From Dietzia sp. JS16-p6b (lineage in GTDB: Bacteria > Actinomycetota > Actinomycetes > Mycobacteriales > Mycobacteriaceae), in the NCBI RefSeq assembly GCF_003052165.1, contig NZ_CP024869.1, forward strand, positions 3,072,001-3,136,000: a stretch of DNA of 64,000 bases, in the 5' to 3' direction. Below the pieces are notes generated by a model that did not search any database, was not told the DNA's origin, and saw only the letters and a list, made by a program, of their open reading frames with translations. This document shows positions 11,503-31,021 of this stretch, piece after piece (position 1 is the first letter of the stretch; each line of letters opens with the position of its first letter). Both the position numbers and the translations under genes were made by a program.

Positions 11503-12087
11503 TCAGCTCCCGAGCGAACCCGTCGTCCGGGCCACGGAACCAGAGCTTCCGAGGCCGGCCAGAGCGGAATCCAACGAACCGAGACCGGCCGGGACACCGG
11601 CCCCAGCAGAGATCTCCATCTCGATGTACTCGTCGCCCGCAGAGCAGATCGCGAGAGCGGACGGAGTGAAGGACCCGTCGGTGAGCGTGGCGTTCGTATC
11701 GTAGAAGCCAGGCGACAACGTGGCGGTCTCCCCGTCTTCGACACCGCCCGTGAAGAGGCCGAGCTGCCCGTTCACCAGCGCCTCGGTCACCTTCGCCTCC
11801 AGTGCCGGGGGCGGTGACGCATCCGGATCCTGTGTCCGCAAGACGGCGTACATCTCCGACAGCAGACTGCCCGGCCCGCCGTACGCGATACAGAACAGAT
11901 CCTGGCCGGACCTGTTGGTGTAGGAGATCTCGGTGTTCGCGCCCTTGCCACTGACGCTCACGCTGCTCGGGCTGTCGAGTACGGGATCGGCGCCTTGGGC
12001 CCCGGCCACTCCGGCCCCGGCGAGGACGGTGGCAGAGGCGATGGCTGTGGCTGCGGCGGCGACGCCGAACCTGGTGAGAGTGCGCAT
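11503..12087 (-). CDS. Exported protein with C-terminal TGSLGS tail
   Basis: Predicted secreted protein of 194 residues. A signal peptide ends in AGA-Q near residue 30. The mature part has NRSGQDLFC around residue 66 and a second Cys in LAICSAGDEY around residue 150, which could form one disulfide. It ends in RTTGSLGS. The same layout (asparagine-containing strand plus Cys, a central helical part, a late Cys after a hydrophobic run, Gly-Ser-Leu tail) occurs in three exported proteins at 26.8-29.3 kb, so I take it as a distant paralog. Function unknown; envelope location is an inference. Confidence 0.7.
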   Translation of the reverse strand: MRTLTRFGVAAAATAIASATVLAGAGVAGAQGADPVLDSPSSVSVSGKGANTEISYTNRSGQDLFCIAYGGPGSLLSEMYAVLRTQDPDASPPPALEAKVTEALVNGQLGLFTGGVEDGETATLSPGFYDTNATLTDGSFTPSALAICSAGDEYIEMEISAGAGVPAGLGSLDSALAGLGSSGSVARTTGSLGS

Positions 12088-18863: not shown

Positions 18864-20543
18864 ATGGATCCTGCCGCCCGCACCGGGACTACGCCCACCA
18901 CCACCGGTCTCGCCCGTCGGACCGTCCTCAAGGCCGGGGCCCTGGCCGGGGCCGCGGTGGGCACGAGTGCGCTGGCGGGCCGGTCCGCGGTCGCGGGCGC
19001 CGACGTGGCGGTGTTCCAGCACGGGGTCGCGTCCGGCGACCCCATGCCCGATCGCGTCATCCTGTGGACAAGGGTGACCCCCGCGCCCGACGCGTTCGCG
19101 GGTTCGGGCCGCGGAGTGCCCGTCACCGTCAGTTGGGAGATCGCCAACGACCCCGGTTTCTCCCAGGTCGTCCGGACCGGTTCGCTCGTCACCGACGCCG
19201 GCCGCGACCACACCGTCAAGTTCGACTGCACCGGCCTGGCCCCCGACCGCTGGTACCACTACCGCTTCCGTGCGCTCGGTCAGACCTCGCCCACCGGTCG
19301 CACCCGCACCGCCCCGGCGGACGGGGCGCTGCCCTCCACCGGCCGCTGGCGCATCGGGGTGGTCTCCTGCTCCAACTGGGAGGCGGGGTACTTCTCCGGG
19401 TACCGCCATCTCGAGGCGCGCGGGGACCTCGACGCGATCGTCGAACTGGGCGACTACATCTACGAGTACGGCCGCGATGAGTACACGGGCAAGTTCGGGG
19501 CGGTGCGGCCCCATGATCCCCCGCACGACACCGTGACCCTGGCCGACTACCGGATCCGCCTGGCCCAGTACCACACCGACCCGGACCTCCAGTCCCTGCA
19601 CGCGCACGTCCCGTGGATCTGCACCTGGGACGACCACGAGCTCGCGAACGACAACTGGTCCGACGGGGCCGAGAACCACCACCCACACCAGGGGCCGTTC
19701 GCCGACCGCAAGGCCGCCAGCTCCCAGGCCTACTTCGAGTGGATGCCGGTGCGGCCCGAGTCCCTCCGCGACGGTGGCCACCTCTACCGGCGGTTGCGCT
19801 GGGGCTCGCTCGCCGAGATCAGCATGCTGGACCTGCGCTCGTACCGCACGGAGGGGCCGGACCGCTTCGACGGCCACGCGATCGACGTCACGGGCACGAT
19901 CACCGGCACCGAGCAGTTCGACTGGCTGGCCCGTGGGCTCAGGTCATCGACCGCCCGCTGGAACGTCATCGGCAACTCGGTGATGATCACGCCCGTGCTC
20001 CTGCCCCCTCTCGATCCGCGGACCACCGCCGCGCTCACCGAGTTGCTGGGCGTCCCGCGCGAGGGCATCACCTACAACCCCGACCAGTGGGACGGCTACG
20101 CGGGTGAGCGCCGCAGACTGATGGAGGTCATCCGCGCCGCCGGCACCCGCAACACCGTCTTCCTCACCGGTGACATCCACACTTCCTGGGCCAACGAGGT
20201 GCCGTTCGAGCCCGCGGACTACCCGGGCGCGGGCGTCGGTGCGATCGAGTTCGTGACCCCGTCGATCACCAGCAACAACATCGACGACATGGTCAACCTG
20301 CCGGAGGGCAACCCGCTGTCCCAGACCGCGCAGGGGGCCCTCACGCAGGTCAACCGCCATGTGCGGTGGGTGGATCTGGACCGCCACGGTTTCACGGTGG
20401 TCGAGTTCACCACCGACTTCGCCCACGCCGACTACTGGGCGCTGGTCGCGCGCGAGGACCCGGCCAGCGGCGCCTACCCCCTCGCCAGCTGGCGGGTGCG
20501 GCACGGGACCGACCAGCTGGAGCCGGCCGGCCCGCTGCCCTGA
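18864..20543 (+). CDS. phoD: Tat-exported alkaline phosphatase D (PhoD)
   Basis: Secreted phosphodiesterase/phosphatase of 559 residues that releases phosphate from organic esters. A twin-arginine signal (ARRTVLKAGALAG, residues 17-29) precedes an AVAGAD cleavage region, fitting export of a folded metal enzyme. The PhoD family is shown by FQHGVASGDPMPDRVILWTR, SCSNWEAGYF, ELGDYIYEYG, TWDDHELANDN and FLTGDIHTSW, which supply the metal ligands. GGTGAAC appears at 18796 and 18850; the reverse complement GTTCACC resembles half-sites of actinobacterial PhoP boxes, so phosphate control is possible but not shown. Confidence 0.92.
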   Translation: MDPAARTGTTPTTTGLARRTVLKAGALAGAAVGTSALAGRSAVAGADVAVFQHGVASGDPMPDRVILWTRVTPAPDAFAGSGRGVPVTVSWEIANDPGFSQVVRTGSLVTDAGRDHTVKFDCTGLAPDRWYHYRFRALGQTSPTGRTRTAPADGALPSTGRWRIGVVSCSNWEAGYFSGYRHLEARGDLDAIVELGDYIYEYGRDEYTGKFGAVRPHDPPHDTVTLADYRIRLAQYHTDPDLQSLHAHVPWICTWDDHELANDNWSDGAENHHPHQGPFADRKAASSQAYFEWMPVRPESLRDGGHLYRRLRWGSLAEISMLDLRSYRTEGPDRFDGHAIDVTGTITGTEQFDWLARGLRSSTARWNVIGNSVMITPVLLPPLDPRTTAALTELLGVPREGITYNPDQWDGYAGERRRLMEVIRAAGTRNTVFLTGDIHTSWANEVPFEPADYPGAGVGAIEFVTPSITSNNIDDMVNLPEGNPLSQTAQGALTQVNRHVRWVDLDRHGFTVVEFTTDFAHADYWALVAREDPASGAYPLASWRVRHGTDQLEPAGPLP

Positions 20544-26838: not shown

Positions 26839-27705
26839 TCAGGGCTCCAGGGTGTCCCCGTCGTCGTCCCCCGGCGGAACCTCATCGACCGGCGGCTCCG
26901 GATCGACGGGATCGGTGCCACTGCTCCCCAGCGACCCGAGGGACCCGCTCCCGAGGCTGCCGGTGTTCTCGGGGACGACGACCGGCGGCGGCCATCCGTC
27001 CTCGAACGTGGACCAGGCGTACAGCTGACCGTTGCCCTGCGCGGCCGCGGAGTTGGTCCCCTGGGCGCACATGGTGAAGAAGCCGATCAGATCCTCGCCG
27101 CGGGGCTGGGTGGCCGGCGGCCCGAGCGTGATGGTCCGGTTGACCGTCTGACCGTTGGTCATCTGGAAAGACCCGGTGGTGCCGAACAGTCCCTCGACCT
27201 TCGCCCGGGTGTTCTGCTCGGTGATGCGCGAGCGGAGCTGGACCGCTTCGGTCGCCATGTCGCCCAGGCTGCCCTGCGGGAAGAACTGGGTGAGCGGCCA
27301 CAGGGGCATGGTGATGGTCGAGCCGGACGCGGTGATGCTGACCGTCTCCGCCCGGACGTTCTGGTACCGCGAGTAGTACTCGGCCGACATCTCGACGACG
27401 GGCGCCGTCGAGACGGTACCGCCGGGCCGGGCGCCCGCGGCGGTGTCCGGGTTGGGCGCCTCACAGAAGACCGTGAAGCCGAGGTTGTTGGTCATCGAGA
27501 CCTGAACGGTGCCCGCGGCCCGGTCGACGTTGACGATGTCGACGGTCATCCCCGGGTTGTTGACGACGACGGTGCGGCCGTCACCGTTGTCACCGGGGAC
27601 GACGGTCACGGCGTTCTGCGCGGCCGCGGTCCCGGCCATACCGAGCACCATGAGGGCGCTCGCGGACGCCGCTGTGAAGCCCTTGAGGGCGCGTGAGGTG
27701 GACAT
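26839..27705 (-). CDS. Exported protein, two-Cys family with internal GSLGS repeats
   Basis: Predicted secreted protein of 288 residues, function unknown. A signal peptide ends in TAAAQN near residue 31. The mature part holds AAGTVQVSMTNNLGFTVFC near residue 68, VSTAPVVEMSAEYYSRYQ, and a late Cys in FFTMCAQG near residue 216. Near residue 248 a TGSLGSGSLGSLGS run begins, followed by an acidic Pro-rich end (DPVDPEPP ... DGDTLEP). It shares this plan with the next two genes. AAGGAGA precedes the ATG at 27705. Last gene of a three-gene minus-strand set. A cell-surface location is inferred. Confidence 0.75.
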   Translation of the reverse strand: MSTSRALKGFTAASASALMVLGMAGTAAAQNAVTVVPGDNGDGRTVVVNNPGMTVDIVNVDRAAGTVQVSMTNNLGFTVFCEAPNPDTAAGARPGGTVSTAPVVEMSAEYYSRYQNVRAETVSITASGSTITMPLWPLTQFFPQGSLGDMATEAVQLRSRITEQNTRAKVEGLFGTTGSFQMTNGQTVNRTITLGPPATQPRGEDLIGFFTMCAQGTNSAAAQGNGQLYAWSTFEDGWPPPVVVPENTGSLGSGSLGSLGSSGTDPVDPEPPVDEVPPGDDDGDTLEP

Positions 27706-27736
27706 GAGTCTCCTTGAGAATTCGGTCTGAAGGGGG

Positions 27737-28474
27737 TTACGAGCCGACGGAGCCGGCACCGAGGCTTCCCGTCGTGCTGGGGTCGGGCGCCGGGTTCGGG
27801 TCCTCGATGTCCTCGAGACCGATGTAGAGGAACCAGTCGTTGGTCACCATGTTGCGGCACATGAACACCGCGGCGGCCCTCCATTCGCCACGGTCGCCGG
27901 TGGCCGGGACACCGAGCGGGGCCGTGTAGTCCACGGTGCCACCGGCCGGGACGGTGAACTGGAGCGCGTTGTTCACCCGGGGGTCACCCGTGCGTCCGGC
28001 GACCCGTGCCTCGTTGTGCGCCTGTCGTGGTCCGGCCTCCGCCGAGCCGATGGCGCTGCCCGCAGGGAAGACGTCGAGGGCCGACCCGAAGGACACCAGG
28101 TCGCCGTTGGCGTTGGTGTCGGTGGGGCCGGTGAACACCCGGGTCCGGTAGTACTCCCGGACCTCCTCGGCCGCCGCGGCGGTGGTCACCTGGCCGTAAC
28201 CGAGCGCCGTGTTCTGACCTCCGATGTTGAACTGGGGGACCTCACAGCGGAAGTTCGCATCGGTGGTGTTCTGGATCGATCCGGTGATCGTCGTGGGCGC
28301 CTCCCCCTTGTCGTTGACCGTGACGACGAGGGAGGTGTCGTCGACCTTGATGACGTAGCCGCCGGGGTTGCCGCCGGGCACCTGGGCGAGCGCGGGGGCC
28401 GCGCCGGCCACGAGAGCCAGTGCGGCAGCCGCAGCGACAGCCCCGCGCACTGCTGTGGTGGTGGTTGAGATCAT
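27737..28474 (-). CDS. Exported protein, two-Cys family with TGSLG tail
   Basis: Predicted secreted protein of 245 residues, function unknown. The signal peptide ends in ALAQ near residue 31. Mature sequence: GNPGGYVIKVDDTSLVV, then a strand ending in NTTDANFRC near residue 78, GQVTTAAAAEEVREYYR near residue 98, a late Cys in AAVFMCRNM near residue 212, and the end PSTTGSLGAGSVGS. AGGAG is upstream of the ATG. It matches the neighbours at 26839 and 28564 in cysteine spacing and tail rather than in overall identity. Confidence 0.75.
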   Translation of the reverse strand: MISTTTTAVRGAVAAAAALALVAGAAPALAQVPGGNPGGYVIKVDDTSLVVTVNDKGEAPTTITGSIQNTTDANFRCEVPQFNIGGQNTALGYGQVTTAAAAEEVREYYRTRVFTGPTDTNANGDLVSFGSALDVFPAGSAIGSAEAGPRQAHNEARVAGRTGDPRVNNALQFTVPAGGTVDYTAPLGVPATGDRGEWRAAAVFMCRNMVTNDWFLYIGLEDIEDPNPAPDPSTTGSLGAGSVGS

Positions 28475-28563
28475 TCTTCACTGCTCCTGTCGTACCGGCC
28501 ATCGTGGAGAGACCGGGGTCCTATCGGATTGCTCTGGTCGCGGTCTGACCGCGGGGGTGACTG

Positions 28564-29289
28564 TCAGCTGCCGAGGCCGGCGCTGCCGAGGCTGCCCGTC
28601 GAGGTATTGGTCGCGTAGTTGGGCTTCACGCCCCCCTCGTACGCGTGGAAGGCGTAGCGCTGGCCGGCGATGGTGCAGGTCATGAACACGCCGGTCTGGA
28701 AGTCCGCGCGCTGACCCTCGACAGGATGATCGAGACGGACGTTCTGCTCGAACGCCGAGGTGGCGGGGATGGTGATGTTCGTCCCGAAGACGCCGTAGTG
28801 GCCGGCGAGACGCGCCTGCTCGAGGGCGGCCTCGTTCTGGTTGAGGGCGTCCCACTCCGGATTGAAGAACTCCGCAGCACTTCCGGCCTGGACCTGGGCC
28901 GATCCGAGGCCGATGTTCTGCGCGCCACCCGCGGCGGACGGGAGATTGAGGGTGAGATCAGCGAGCTCGGAGAGCGGGTACTGCGTGAAGTAGTCGATCG
29001 ACCGGGCCACGACCTCGGCGGTGGTGACCGTCGCCGCCGGCCCGCCATCGATACCGGTGCAGTTGAGGTTGGTCCCGGTGTTGTTCTGCATCACGACCCG
29101 GACGGTCCCGGCCGCCTGGTCGAGGGGGTAGACGGCGAGTTGGATCTGCGTGTTGTCGACCGGATACACCGTGGTGCGGGGGTTGTTACCCGGGATCTGG
29201 GCAGTGGCGGCCGGCGCCGCGGCGGCGACGAACGCCGCGGCTAGTCCGAGCGCCGCGATTCTGGCTGAAGGGTGCCACGTACGTGCCAT
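28564..29289 (-). CDS. Exported protein, two-Cys family with TGSLGS tail
   Basis: Predicted secreted protein of 241 residues and first gene of the set. The signal peptide ends in ATAQ near residue 31. The mature protein begins IPGNNPRTTVYPVDNTQIQL, has AAGTVRVVMQNNTGTNLNC near residue 65, TTAEVVARSIDYFTQY near residue 90, a late Cys in GVFMTCTIAG near residue 210, and ends STGSLGSAGLGS. AAGGAG is upstream of the ATG. The stretch AAGTV-V-M-NN-G is nearly the same as in the gene at 26839, which supports common descent. Function unknown. Confidence 0.75.
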   Translation of the reverse strand: MARTWHPSARIAALGLAAAFVAAAAPAATAQIPGNNPRTTVYPVDNTQIQLAVYPLDQAAGTVRVVMQNNTGTNLNCTGIDGGPAATVTTAEVVARSIDYFTQYPLSELADLTLNLPSAAGGAQNIGLGSAQVQAGSAAEFFNPEWDALNQNEAALEQARLAGHYGVFGTNITIPATSAFEQNVRLDHPVEGQRADFQTGVFMTCTIAGQRYAFHAYEGGVKPNYATNTSTGSLGSAGLGS

Positions 29290-29758: not shown

Positions 29759-31021
29759 ATGATGTTGACACGCGCTACGGCGCTGGTGGCCGGAGCCACC
29801 CTGCCGCTGGCCACCGCCATCGCCCTCGCCCCGGCGGCCACGGCCCAGAACTCACCCACCACCACCGGGACGGTCGAGGTCACCTACACCTGCACTCCCG
29901 ACAACGCTCTGAACATCGGGGGCGTGAACACCTGGACCAACACGGTCGAGGTCACCTACCCCACGTTCGTCTCTCCGGGCGAGTTCTTCGAGGTCTCGAT
30001 CCAGCCGGGGCCGATGCAGCCCAACACGGTGCGGGTCGGCCGGATCACCTACGACATCCAGGCGCCGAGCAACGCCGACTACCGCACCCAGACGCTGACG
30101 AGCGGCGCCACCGGGATCACCGCCGGCAGCCCCTCGCTGGCCGAGGTCAGCCCGACGACCAAGGCGACCCAGGCGGGGTCCAACACCGTTCGGATCTGGG
30201 GTGGACAATCCGCCCGCTACGGGACGAACACCGGCACGTCCATCAACACCGGCCTGCAGAAGAACAACAACCTGTCGTTCCAGCTGCCCGAGGTCACCTT
30301 CAGCATGCGCGCACCGAACACCCCCAGCCAGCAGATCGTCTTCGGGCTGCCCGGGGCCGGAGCCGCCGCCGCCACCGATGCGGCGTCGACCCAGTTCCAG
30401 TACACCCGCGGAACCACGGCGGGTGGCACCGGCACCACCGGCGCCCAGGTGGAGTGTGCCGCCAGTGCCAATGCGGCCGCCCTCACCACCACCACGATCA
30501 CCAACGCCCCGTGGGTCCCCTTCCAGTGGAACACCAACCTGAACGTCCAGGCCCAGCCCGGCGCGCTCGACGAGGATTCGCTCGCGGTCAACGTGGTGAC
30601 CTCCTTCCAGCGGCCCTCGAACAACTTCCCCGCCGGCACGATGGTCACGATCCTCCGTGACGGCGTCGAGGTCGGGCAGGTCGAGATGCCGGGGTCAGGC
30701 ACCACCGTCGCCTTCGCGGACGACATCCCCCGTACGGCCGACACGCAGGTGTACCGCTACACGGCCGTGTTGAACAACCAGGACACACTGGGCGACACCT
30801 GGGTCGGAACCACCGCGACCTCGTCTCCCGTCATCGTCGCCGGCACCAACCCCGGAGCGGGCGGAGGCGGCACCGGCTCGCTGGACCCCGGCTCCGTCAT
30901 CAACCCGATCGACTCGGCCATCGGCGGCTCCCTCACCGCGGGCCTGTCCGGATCGGTCGGATATGACGTCGCGCCGCTGTCGAGCCCGACCGTCACGGGC
31001 CTGCTGAGCTCCGCGAGCTGA
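29759..31021 (+). CDS. Large exported protein, possible surface protein
   Basis: Predicted secreted protein of 420 residues, function unknown. The signal peptide ends in AATAQN near residue 30. The mature part is rich in Thr, Asn and Gly and short beta strands: TVEVTYTCTPDNALNIGG at the start, a second Cys in AQVECAASAN near residue 233, and an Ig-like stretch near residues 275-360 (TMVTILRDGVEVGQVE). The end is Gly/Ser-rich with GGTGSLDPGSV and an uncharged tail ending LLSSAS. AAAGGA precedes the ATG. Divergent from the two-Cys cluster, with which it may share regulation. Confidence 0.7.
   Translation: MMLTRATALVAGATLPLATAIALAPAATAQNSPTTTGTVEVTYTCTPDNALNIGGVNTWTNTVEVTYPTFVSPGEFFEVSIQPGPMQPNTVRVGRITYDIQAPSNADYRTQTLTSGATGITAGSPSLAEVSPTTKATQAGSNTVRIWGGQSARYGTNTGTSINTGLQKNNNLSFQLPEVTFSMRAPNTPSQQIVFGLPGAGAAAATDAASTQFQYTRGTTAGGTGTTGAQVECAASANAAALTTTTITNAPWVPFQWNTNLNVQAQPGALDEDSLAVNVVTSFQRPSNNFPAGTMVTILRDGVEVGQVEMPGSGTTVAFADDIPRTADTQVYRYTAVLNNQDTLGDTWVGTTATSSPVIVAGTNPGAGGGGTGSLDPGSVINPIDSAIGGSLTAGLSGSVGYDVAPLSSPTVTGLLSSAS

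Follow-up and report, generated by a model that had tools for sequence, protein, structure and literature searches.

The stretch of DNA analysed here (the window) comprises 64,000 nucleotides, positions 3,072,001 to 3,136,000 of contig NZ_CP024869.1, and belongs to Dietzia sp. JS16-p6b (Mycobacteriales), the genome of which consists of 3.72 Mb on one contig. It encodes four exported proteins, called A, B, C and D in the following, that contain two cysteines and carry a tail with Gly-Ser-Leu (GSL) motifs at or near the C-terminus, and a further exported protein, E, encoded divergently from D (Table 1). The original prediction, made from the letters of the window, had described four exported open reading frames (ORFs) of a common plan, and reading all four bears out their positions, signal peptides and cysteine contexts. 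The signal peptides end with GVAGAQ in A, GTAAAQ in B, PALAQ in C and ATAQ in D. The first cysteine is found in the contexts NRSGQDLFC (A), NNLGFTVFC (B), NTTDANFRC (C, in which Asp replaces Gly) and NNTGTNLNC (D), and the second in the contexts SALAIC, GFFTMC, AAVFMC and VFMTC, respectively. The placement of a TGSLGS tail at or near the C-terminus holds with one correction: in A, C and D the tail is terminal (ARTTGSLGS-stop, TTGSLGAGSVGS-stop and STGSLGSAGLGS-stop), whereas in B the sequence NTGSLGSGSLGSLGSSG is followed by 25 residues in which Asp, Glu, Pro and Gly predominate and the motif is therefore internal. The genes D, C and B are arranged head to tail with intergenic gaps of 89 and 31 bases.

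Table 1. Genes and tail elements of the window; positions count from the first base of the window.
Feature	Position	Strand	Description	Basis or remark
Gene A	11503..12087	-	exported two-Cys protein, 194 amino acids	remote member of the B/C/D superfamily
A tail	11506..11598	-	31 residues, ending TTGSLGS	purifying selection
PhoD-type phosphatase	19356-20435	+	PF09423, E 5.3e-110	no tail
Gene B	26839..27705	-	exported two-Cys paralogue, 288 amino acids, ATG at 27705	25 residues after GSL motifs
B motif	26917..26964	-	TGSLGSGSLGSLGSSG	precedes acidic end
Gene C	27737..28474	-	exported two-Cys paralogue, 245 amino acids, tail TTGSLGAGSVGS	ORF, genome search, alignment
C tail	27740..27772	-	TGSLGAGSVGS	
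Gene D	28564..29289	-	exported two-Cys protein, 241 amino acids, tail STGSLGSAGLGS; opens tandem D-C-B	ORF, relatives, alignment
D tail	28567..28599	-	TGSLGSAGLGS	19/19 D-type rows end Gly-Ser
Gene E	29759..31021	+	exported, divergent from D	GSL motifs, LLSSAS end

A common two-cysteine domain

Searching the whole genome with D as a query recovers B with an expectation value (E) of 1.1e-12 and C with E 1.0e-8, indicating that B, C and D are tandem paralogues. Relatives of D at E 7e-9 or better are present in 13 of 23 Dietzia genomes, its own genome counted, and in 38 genomes outside Dietzia no match is better than E 0.048; the weak matches at and above this value were not counted as family members. 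A search of named genomes with two short peptide patterns of D returned four loci, all of them from Dietzia (D. alimentaria 72, Dietzia sp. SLG310A2-38A2, D. aurantiaca J3 and an uncultured Dietzia). Around the D matches, three family genes follow each other in the order D-C-B in 16 of 20 loci; the remaining four contain one gene at a contig end (L043, L015; genomes and loci are cited with G and L numbers), a single D-type gene (L045) or none (L058). Five species encode two triplets (G002, G012, G013, G016, G017), the second of which is diverged. Past the diverged second triplet, four loci (L041, L049, L051, L057) encode one more protein of exported appearance, which contains GSxG motifs. In the two-contig genome G002, the E-D-C-B group occurs a second time on a small separate contig of 26.6 kb (G002:C2, L042), which is perhaps a plasmid.

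Both cysteines, Cys77 and Cys205 in D, are invariant in all 24 aligned B/C/D rows and also in the rows of A (7/7) and of a group termed F (5/5, one of them D-like); if two longer relatives are added to the A rows, invariance is left in the first cysteine column only. Group F consists of ORFs that adjoin A-like genes in other species (e.g., L092:2407-2814 and L097:612-1031), chosen by eye from their cysteines and tails, which follow the same two-cysteine plan and have termini such as GSLDMGSLGS. After the predicted cleavage site, proteins of this group start with SLGSLG or GSLDSL. The domain is most likely closed by one disulfide formed by the paired cysteines.

The position of A within this family is less direct. 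A has six close orthologues including itself (E below 1e-50), a search of its own genome with A returned no paralogue at E up to 1, and in a MAFFT alignment B, C and D are 24-30% identical to A. An earlier profile comparison of A with B/C/D, done with fewer sequences and with the tails kept, gave a probability of only 8%. For the comparison with hhalign, signal peptides and the sequence beyond 22 residues past the last cysteine were removed, a rough trimming that leaves the start of the tail in F and some A rows and a piece of the signal peptide in some B/C/D rows. The trimmed profiles match with 95% probability and a score of 55.0 for F and B/C/D (maximum of 60 column shuffles 15.8), 89% and 42.0 for F and A (15.5), and 70% and 36.8 for A and B/C/D (14.7), and reversed profiles reach 0 to 3% probability. 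The local match of A to B/C/D spans 118 columns, i.e., nearly the full length, falls outside the leftover pieces of tail and signal peptide, and pairs both cysteines in the printed alignments. The idea that A is linked to B/C/D by its tail alone was rejected on the basis of this nearly full-length match in the larger, trimmed alignments. Since the trimmed profiles match far above the shuffles, the claim of the original prediction that the four proteins form one family holds: search and profile comparison support a homologous secreted two-cysteine domain in A, B, C and D, with A as a remote homologue, and the kinship is clearest if group F is used as a bridge. We read these proteins as a Dietzia superfamily exported by the Sec route.

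A genome search with the F profile reaches A-family loci in G003, G002 and G001 (E 1.4e-5, 1.4e-4 and 4.2e-4), which is not circular; as the profile held one D-like protein (L045), its matches to B/C/D are partly circular. Several weaker candidates were not counted as family members. These are the matches of A in G024 and G026 (E 0.0011 and 0.0032; the ORF of L096 ends without tail), the F profile match L159, which is antisense to an ORF that we take to be dUTPase-like, and L158 and L161, which we take to be similar to PCu(A)C copper chaperones. The matches to the latter two chaperone-like lipoproteins (E 3.3e-4 and 0.0096) lie in the region of the strand with the first cysteine, and may hint at a shared beta-sandwich fold.

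None of the five proteins A to E reaches a curated cut-off of Pfam or NCBIfam, those of the MspA porins included; a shared fold may exist all the same. For C, the best match to the PDB has E 0.16. The structure model of D has a mean predicted local distance difference test (pLDDT) score of 65 and is a mainly beta-stranded fold with two helices, a beta-sandwich, in which tail residues 197-210 are modelled as disordered (pLDDT under 50). The single-sequence model of A is too low in confidence for use (mean pLDDT 32.6).

Form and conservation of the tail

The tail usually consists of at least two GSLxx pentads and a closing GSLGS; examples are GSLSAGSLGS in C orthologues, GSLGSAGLGS in D and GSLSGGSLPAGSLGS in the alkaline phosphatase PhoX described below. 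The spacing of G-[SR]-[LFMV] motifs equals five residues in 37 of 41 cases in PhoX, in 15 of 31 in B/C/D and in 9 of 35 in the A/F set. By eye, Gly and Ser prevail in the tails of A, C and D, Leu occurs in isolation, and there is no hydrophobic anchor.

Persistence of the tail in orthologues, which the original prediction had made a test of the family, was found for A and for the first cluster of C and D, and does not extend to the remote A relatives, to B and to the second cluster, where the tail is altered or absent. All six close A orthologues, the A of the window counted, end with TTGSLGS, whereas remoter relatives have scattered GSL motifs near the end. By a loose rule, a tail is present in 9/11 first-cluster D-type rows, in 8/10 C-type rows of the first cluster and 2/8 of the second, and at the very end in 0/10 B-type rows of the first cluster and 2/5 of the second; this rule also passes the C-type row L057 and two PhoX proteins from outside Dietzia (L135, L140), none of which is truly tailed. 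The B-type genes L015 and L044 have no usable Met start and were left out of these counts, L042 is a second copy within G002, and closely related species are not independent. Other species have a second paralogous cluster, in which the tail is replaced by GRFGS or GSTGNR and most C-type proteins lack it. All 19 D-type rows end with Gly-Ser, even where GSLGS is changed to GRFGS or GRFPGS. A C-terminal serine is present in 8/10 first-cluster C-type rows and in 0/10 first-cluster B-type rows.

The tail is under selection at least in A. Comparing the codons of five A orthologues (L084 was left out as nearly the same as L083), the 31 tail codons contain 5 residue-changing and 23 synonymous-only columns and the 132 ungapped codons of the core contain 91 and 33, respectively, so that conservation is far higher in the tail than in the core (Fisher P 7.3e-8). 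For C and D, six orthologues each were compared: in the last ten codons the ratio of residue-changing to synonymous-only columns is 2:7 in D (core 85:75) and 3:5 in C (core 81:73). Pooled over A, C and D, the last ten codons give 6:19 compared to 257:181 in the core (P 7.6e-4), with the reservation that the species are kin and the codon counts are hence not independent events.

The tail on unrelated exported proteins

Next to the two-cysteine family, the tail is found on exported proteins of other kinds. The PhoX alkaline phosphatase (Pfam PF05787) of the same genome also ends with GSLGS. Among 30 PhoX loci, a set that does not include G057, 17 of 18 Dietzia proteins extend 18-35 residues past the last Trp, mostly with GSL repeats, and the untailed one is the most diverged (G011, 63% identity). 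Such an extension is carried by none of the 12 PhoX proteins from other genera, 10 of which have 2-11 residues past the last Trp, this Trp being missing in the other two. In 12 of the 17 tailed proteins the tail after VVAW is 18, 23, 28 or 33 residues long, i.e., its length changes in steps of five.

The second example is an antigen-85-like esterase (L187) of the same genome, which matches PF00756 with E 1.4e-21 and ends with GSAGSLGSTGSAGSLGG. PF00756 is the family to which antigen 85 belongs; the genome has matches to it at eight places, one of which bears the tail. We read the tailed esterase as a putative mycoloyltransferase, and its score for the NCBIfam polyhydroxyalkanoate depolymerase family is far below the cut-off (20.8 vs 150 bits). 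The reading of this family covers 30 loci among over 100 matching places and leaves out Dietzia paralogues without a locus: within it, a Gly-Ser-x repeat end is present in 21/21 Dietzia loci of the tailed esterase and in 0/10 more distant ORFs (9 loci). The period of this tail is three residues (105 of at least 145 GS-GS spacings). In L198 and L199 the esterase frame contains a stop and the tail sits in the second piece; the interruption is a TAG in both genomes (G022 and G021, respectively), the matches of which score equally. Finally, the exported protein L083:307-768, which by eye has another layout of cysteines, ends with GSLSLGSLDVFGSLGS.

At least three unrelated kinds of protein thus carry a tail of the GSL type, and the tail is a module separate from the two-cysteine domain. 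Its apparent confinement to Dietzia refers to the PhoX, esterase and A-F families. The presence of the tail on PhoX and the esterase suggests that sorting or anchoring fits better than family membership as an explanation for it. In the open-licence papers searched, no description of such a tail was found.

The background frequency was estimated from a sample of the genome, 20 stretches of 20 kb at even distances together with the window. As the window was selected for its tails, the sample gives a background rate only. The tail rules match 4 of 382 predicted genes, all of them A, B, C and D, and none of the 267 genes without a predicted signal peptide. The gene finder and the signal-peptide predictor were crude custom scripts, and the 115 genes called exported include membrane proteins. 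One near miss (L064 6659-7339), ending with FAGSLG, fails the rules. At the DNA level, a GSLGS-stop pattern has 8 matches compared to 17 for a control pattern, and only A and PhoX read as real genes.

L064 encodes two exported ORFs that consist mostly of GSL repeats, L064:12414-14045 (contig 258414-260045) with 48 GSL after residue 40 and L064:6659-7339 (contig 252659-253339) with 12, built of tandem DNA units of 15, 45 and 243 bases. They provide most GSL motifs of their classes in the sample (48/68 and 12/15), the longer one having been filed as a membrane protein by the crude sorting. These repeat proteins match no Pfam family at E up to 1, and it is possible that they serve as a surface scaffold. 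With their G-S-L-x-x repeat they and the longer tails resemble the pentapeptide-repeat proteins in having a period of five; they differ in that the L064 proteins have no Pfam match, the C and D tails comprise only about two units, and the esterase tail has a period of three, the tails as such being too short for a comparison with repeat profiles. Among 61 genomes, E occurs in 18, every one of them from Dietzia; the terminus SPTVTGLLSSAS is common to some species and others end GSLGS-like, and the orthologue in L052 has a weak match to a bacterial Ig-like domain, below the cut-off.

A possible role in envelope anchoring

Dietzia is reported to bear mycolates and to shed mycomembrane vesicles, in which members of the HtaA, LIP and PhoD families were detected and changed (PMC8027190). 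The original prediction had suggested a signal for sorting, assembly or insertion into the mycomembrane. The tail may mark exported proteins of Dietzia for this outer envelope. In particular, we suggest that the tail of A-D anchors the proteins in the envelope via its C-terminal serine, most likely by O-mycoloylation, a reading to which we assign a probability of roughly one in three. The folded two-cysteine domain of the exported protein would be left free and the tail would fix the protein in the envelope; the C-terminal serine would be the attachment point, at a site similar to the penultimate serines of PorH and ProtX, and an antigen-85-type protein mycoloyltransferase would catalyze the reaction. 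C-terminal acylation is ranked first because the tails found on the exported proteins A, C and D end with Ser and lack a hydrophobic segment.

The closest known system are the O-mycoloylated proteins of Corynebacterium glutamicum. The sites reported for these are PorA Ser15, PorH Ser56 and ProtX Ser37, the latter two being penultimate, and PorH and PorB both end with NFSS; according to the paper on the ProtX site, the three sites then known had no obvious consensus (PMC5310785). PorB and PorC, which have been click-labelled there after feeding of 17-octadecynoic acid, are probable further members of this group. Mycoloylation is described to favor the envelope association of PorB and PorC (PMC5310785), and a preprint considers PorH and ProtX as likely cell-wall-linked (PMC12632848). 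A, C and D of Dietzia are likewise exported proteins of a mycolate-bearing order with a Ser at or near the C-terminus. They differ in that the C. glutamicum proteins are small, with a helical PorB, whereas the Dietzia proteins are larger, with a beta-sandwich in the model of D and a penultimate Gly. Compared to the porins PorB and PorC, small all-helical proteins of 126 and 123 amino acids with one disulfide, D is longer and by its model mainly beta-stranded.

The anchor reported for PS2 is different: about 25 hydrophobic residues form a segment that invariably ends with Phe (F, P or K in others), follows a disordered stretch and is present on several unrelated surface proteins (PMC12021427). 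The Dietzia tail, the anchoring role of which is putative, resembles it in being C-terminal, following a disordered stretch and occurring on unrelated proteins; A, C and D differ from it in that their tails lack the hydrophobic segment and have Ser as the last residue.

Several observations weigh against an anchor at the C-terminal serine. A terminal serine is missing from PhoX tails that end with GSLGR or GSLTR and from B-type proteins that end with GSTGNR or GSVGRR; in B of the first cluster, more residues come after the motif. The penultimate residue of GSLGS is Gly and that of PorH is Ser. Whereas the tails are strict in A, C and D, the esterase tail varies freely, and the tail codons of D and C pooled do not clearly differ from linker and core (P 0.058 and 0.080). 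For C. glutamicum, PorA and PorH are reported to stay in the envelope without mycoloylation (PMC5310785), and the single loss of PorH Ser56 or PorA Ser15 to leave surface exposure unaffected (PMC5310785, PMC12632848), so that among these model proteins a mycoloyl anchor is established only for PorB and PorC. Furthermore, the prediction set beforehand that the tail marks all mycomembrane proteins failed: of the HtaA (1 place), LIP (9) and PhoD (2) ORFs checked in this genome, which are members of these families here and not the vesicle proteins of strain DQ12-45-1b themselves, 0/12 end with the tail. The tail is therefore not a universal mycomembrane signal. The HtaA protein ends with an apparent transmembrane segment, and two secreted LIP lipases (L222, L226) have Gly-Ser motifs directly after the signal peptide.

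Alternatively, the tail might be a flexible Gly-Ser extension of low complexity that lengthens and shortens by repeat slippage, is tolerated on exported proteins of Dietzia and has no specific binding partner, which we consider nearly as likely as the anchor. The five-residue steps in the length of PhoX tails and the spacing of their motifs, the esterase tails differing in sequence and length, the two L064 ORFs made largely of GSL repeats and the disorder of the tail in the model of D are all consistent with such an extension. However, A, C and D have tails that are constant in length among the close orthologues aligned and change mostly synonymously, the Gly-Ser end of D-type proteins is kept throughout, and the A tail is better conserved than the A core, so that a neutral filler is no explanation for A.

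Two further explanations were considered. GSL tails might bind each other or the GSL-repeat proteins as docking motifs free of lipid, building a surface layer or fibre of E, D, C, B and others. GSL motifs on exported proteins of widely differing length, two repeat proteins included, the divergent position of E beside D with orthologues that have GSL-rich or LLSSAS ends, and three tandem paralogues of one plan, which suggest an assembly of several subunits, point in this direction; with the enzyme PhoX carrying the tail as well, we regard it as quite improbable. Substrates of sortases contain an LPXTG motif, a hydrophobic segment and a basic end. By analogy, a processing or attachment enzyme might recognize the tail and link the protein covalently to arabinogalactan or peptidoglycan. 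Such a system needs, as in LPXTG substrates, a short C-terminal motif that is conserved across exported proteins of one lineage with no other relationship. Nevertheless, the sequences of A-D contain no LPXTG, no transmembrane segment and no basic end, and the motif of B is internal, making this the most doubtful of the explanations considered.

Significance

How proteins are sent to the mycomembrane and held there is an open question. The tail recurring on unrelated exported proteins of Dietzia offers a concrete candidate for such a signal, one that experiments can transfer, delete and weigh, and the finding that the tail of A is under stronger constraint than the preceding domain adds weight to it as a candidate. 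Returning to O-mycoloylation at the C-terminal serine, the reading might be extended to the proposal that Dietzia has an envelope signal of its own that can be read from the sequence: at least one GSLxx unit carrying G-[SR]-[LF]-G-S-COOH, recognized by a protein mycoloyltransferase and transferable to exported proteins of any kind. We think this general form unlikely; if true, it would give protein mycoloylation its first consensus.

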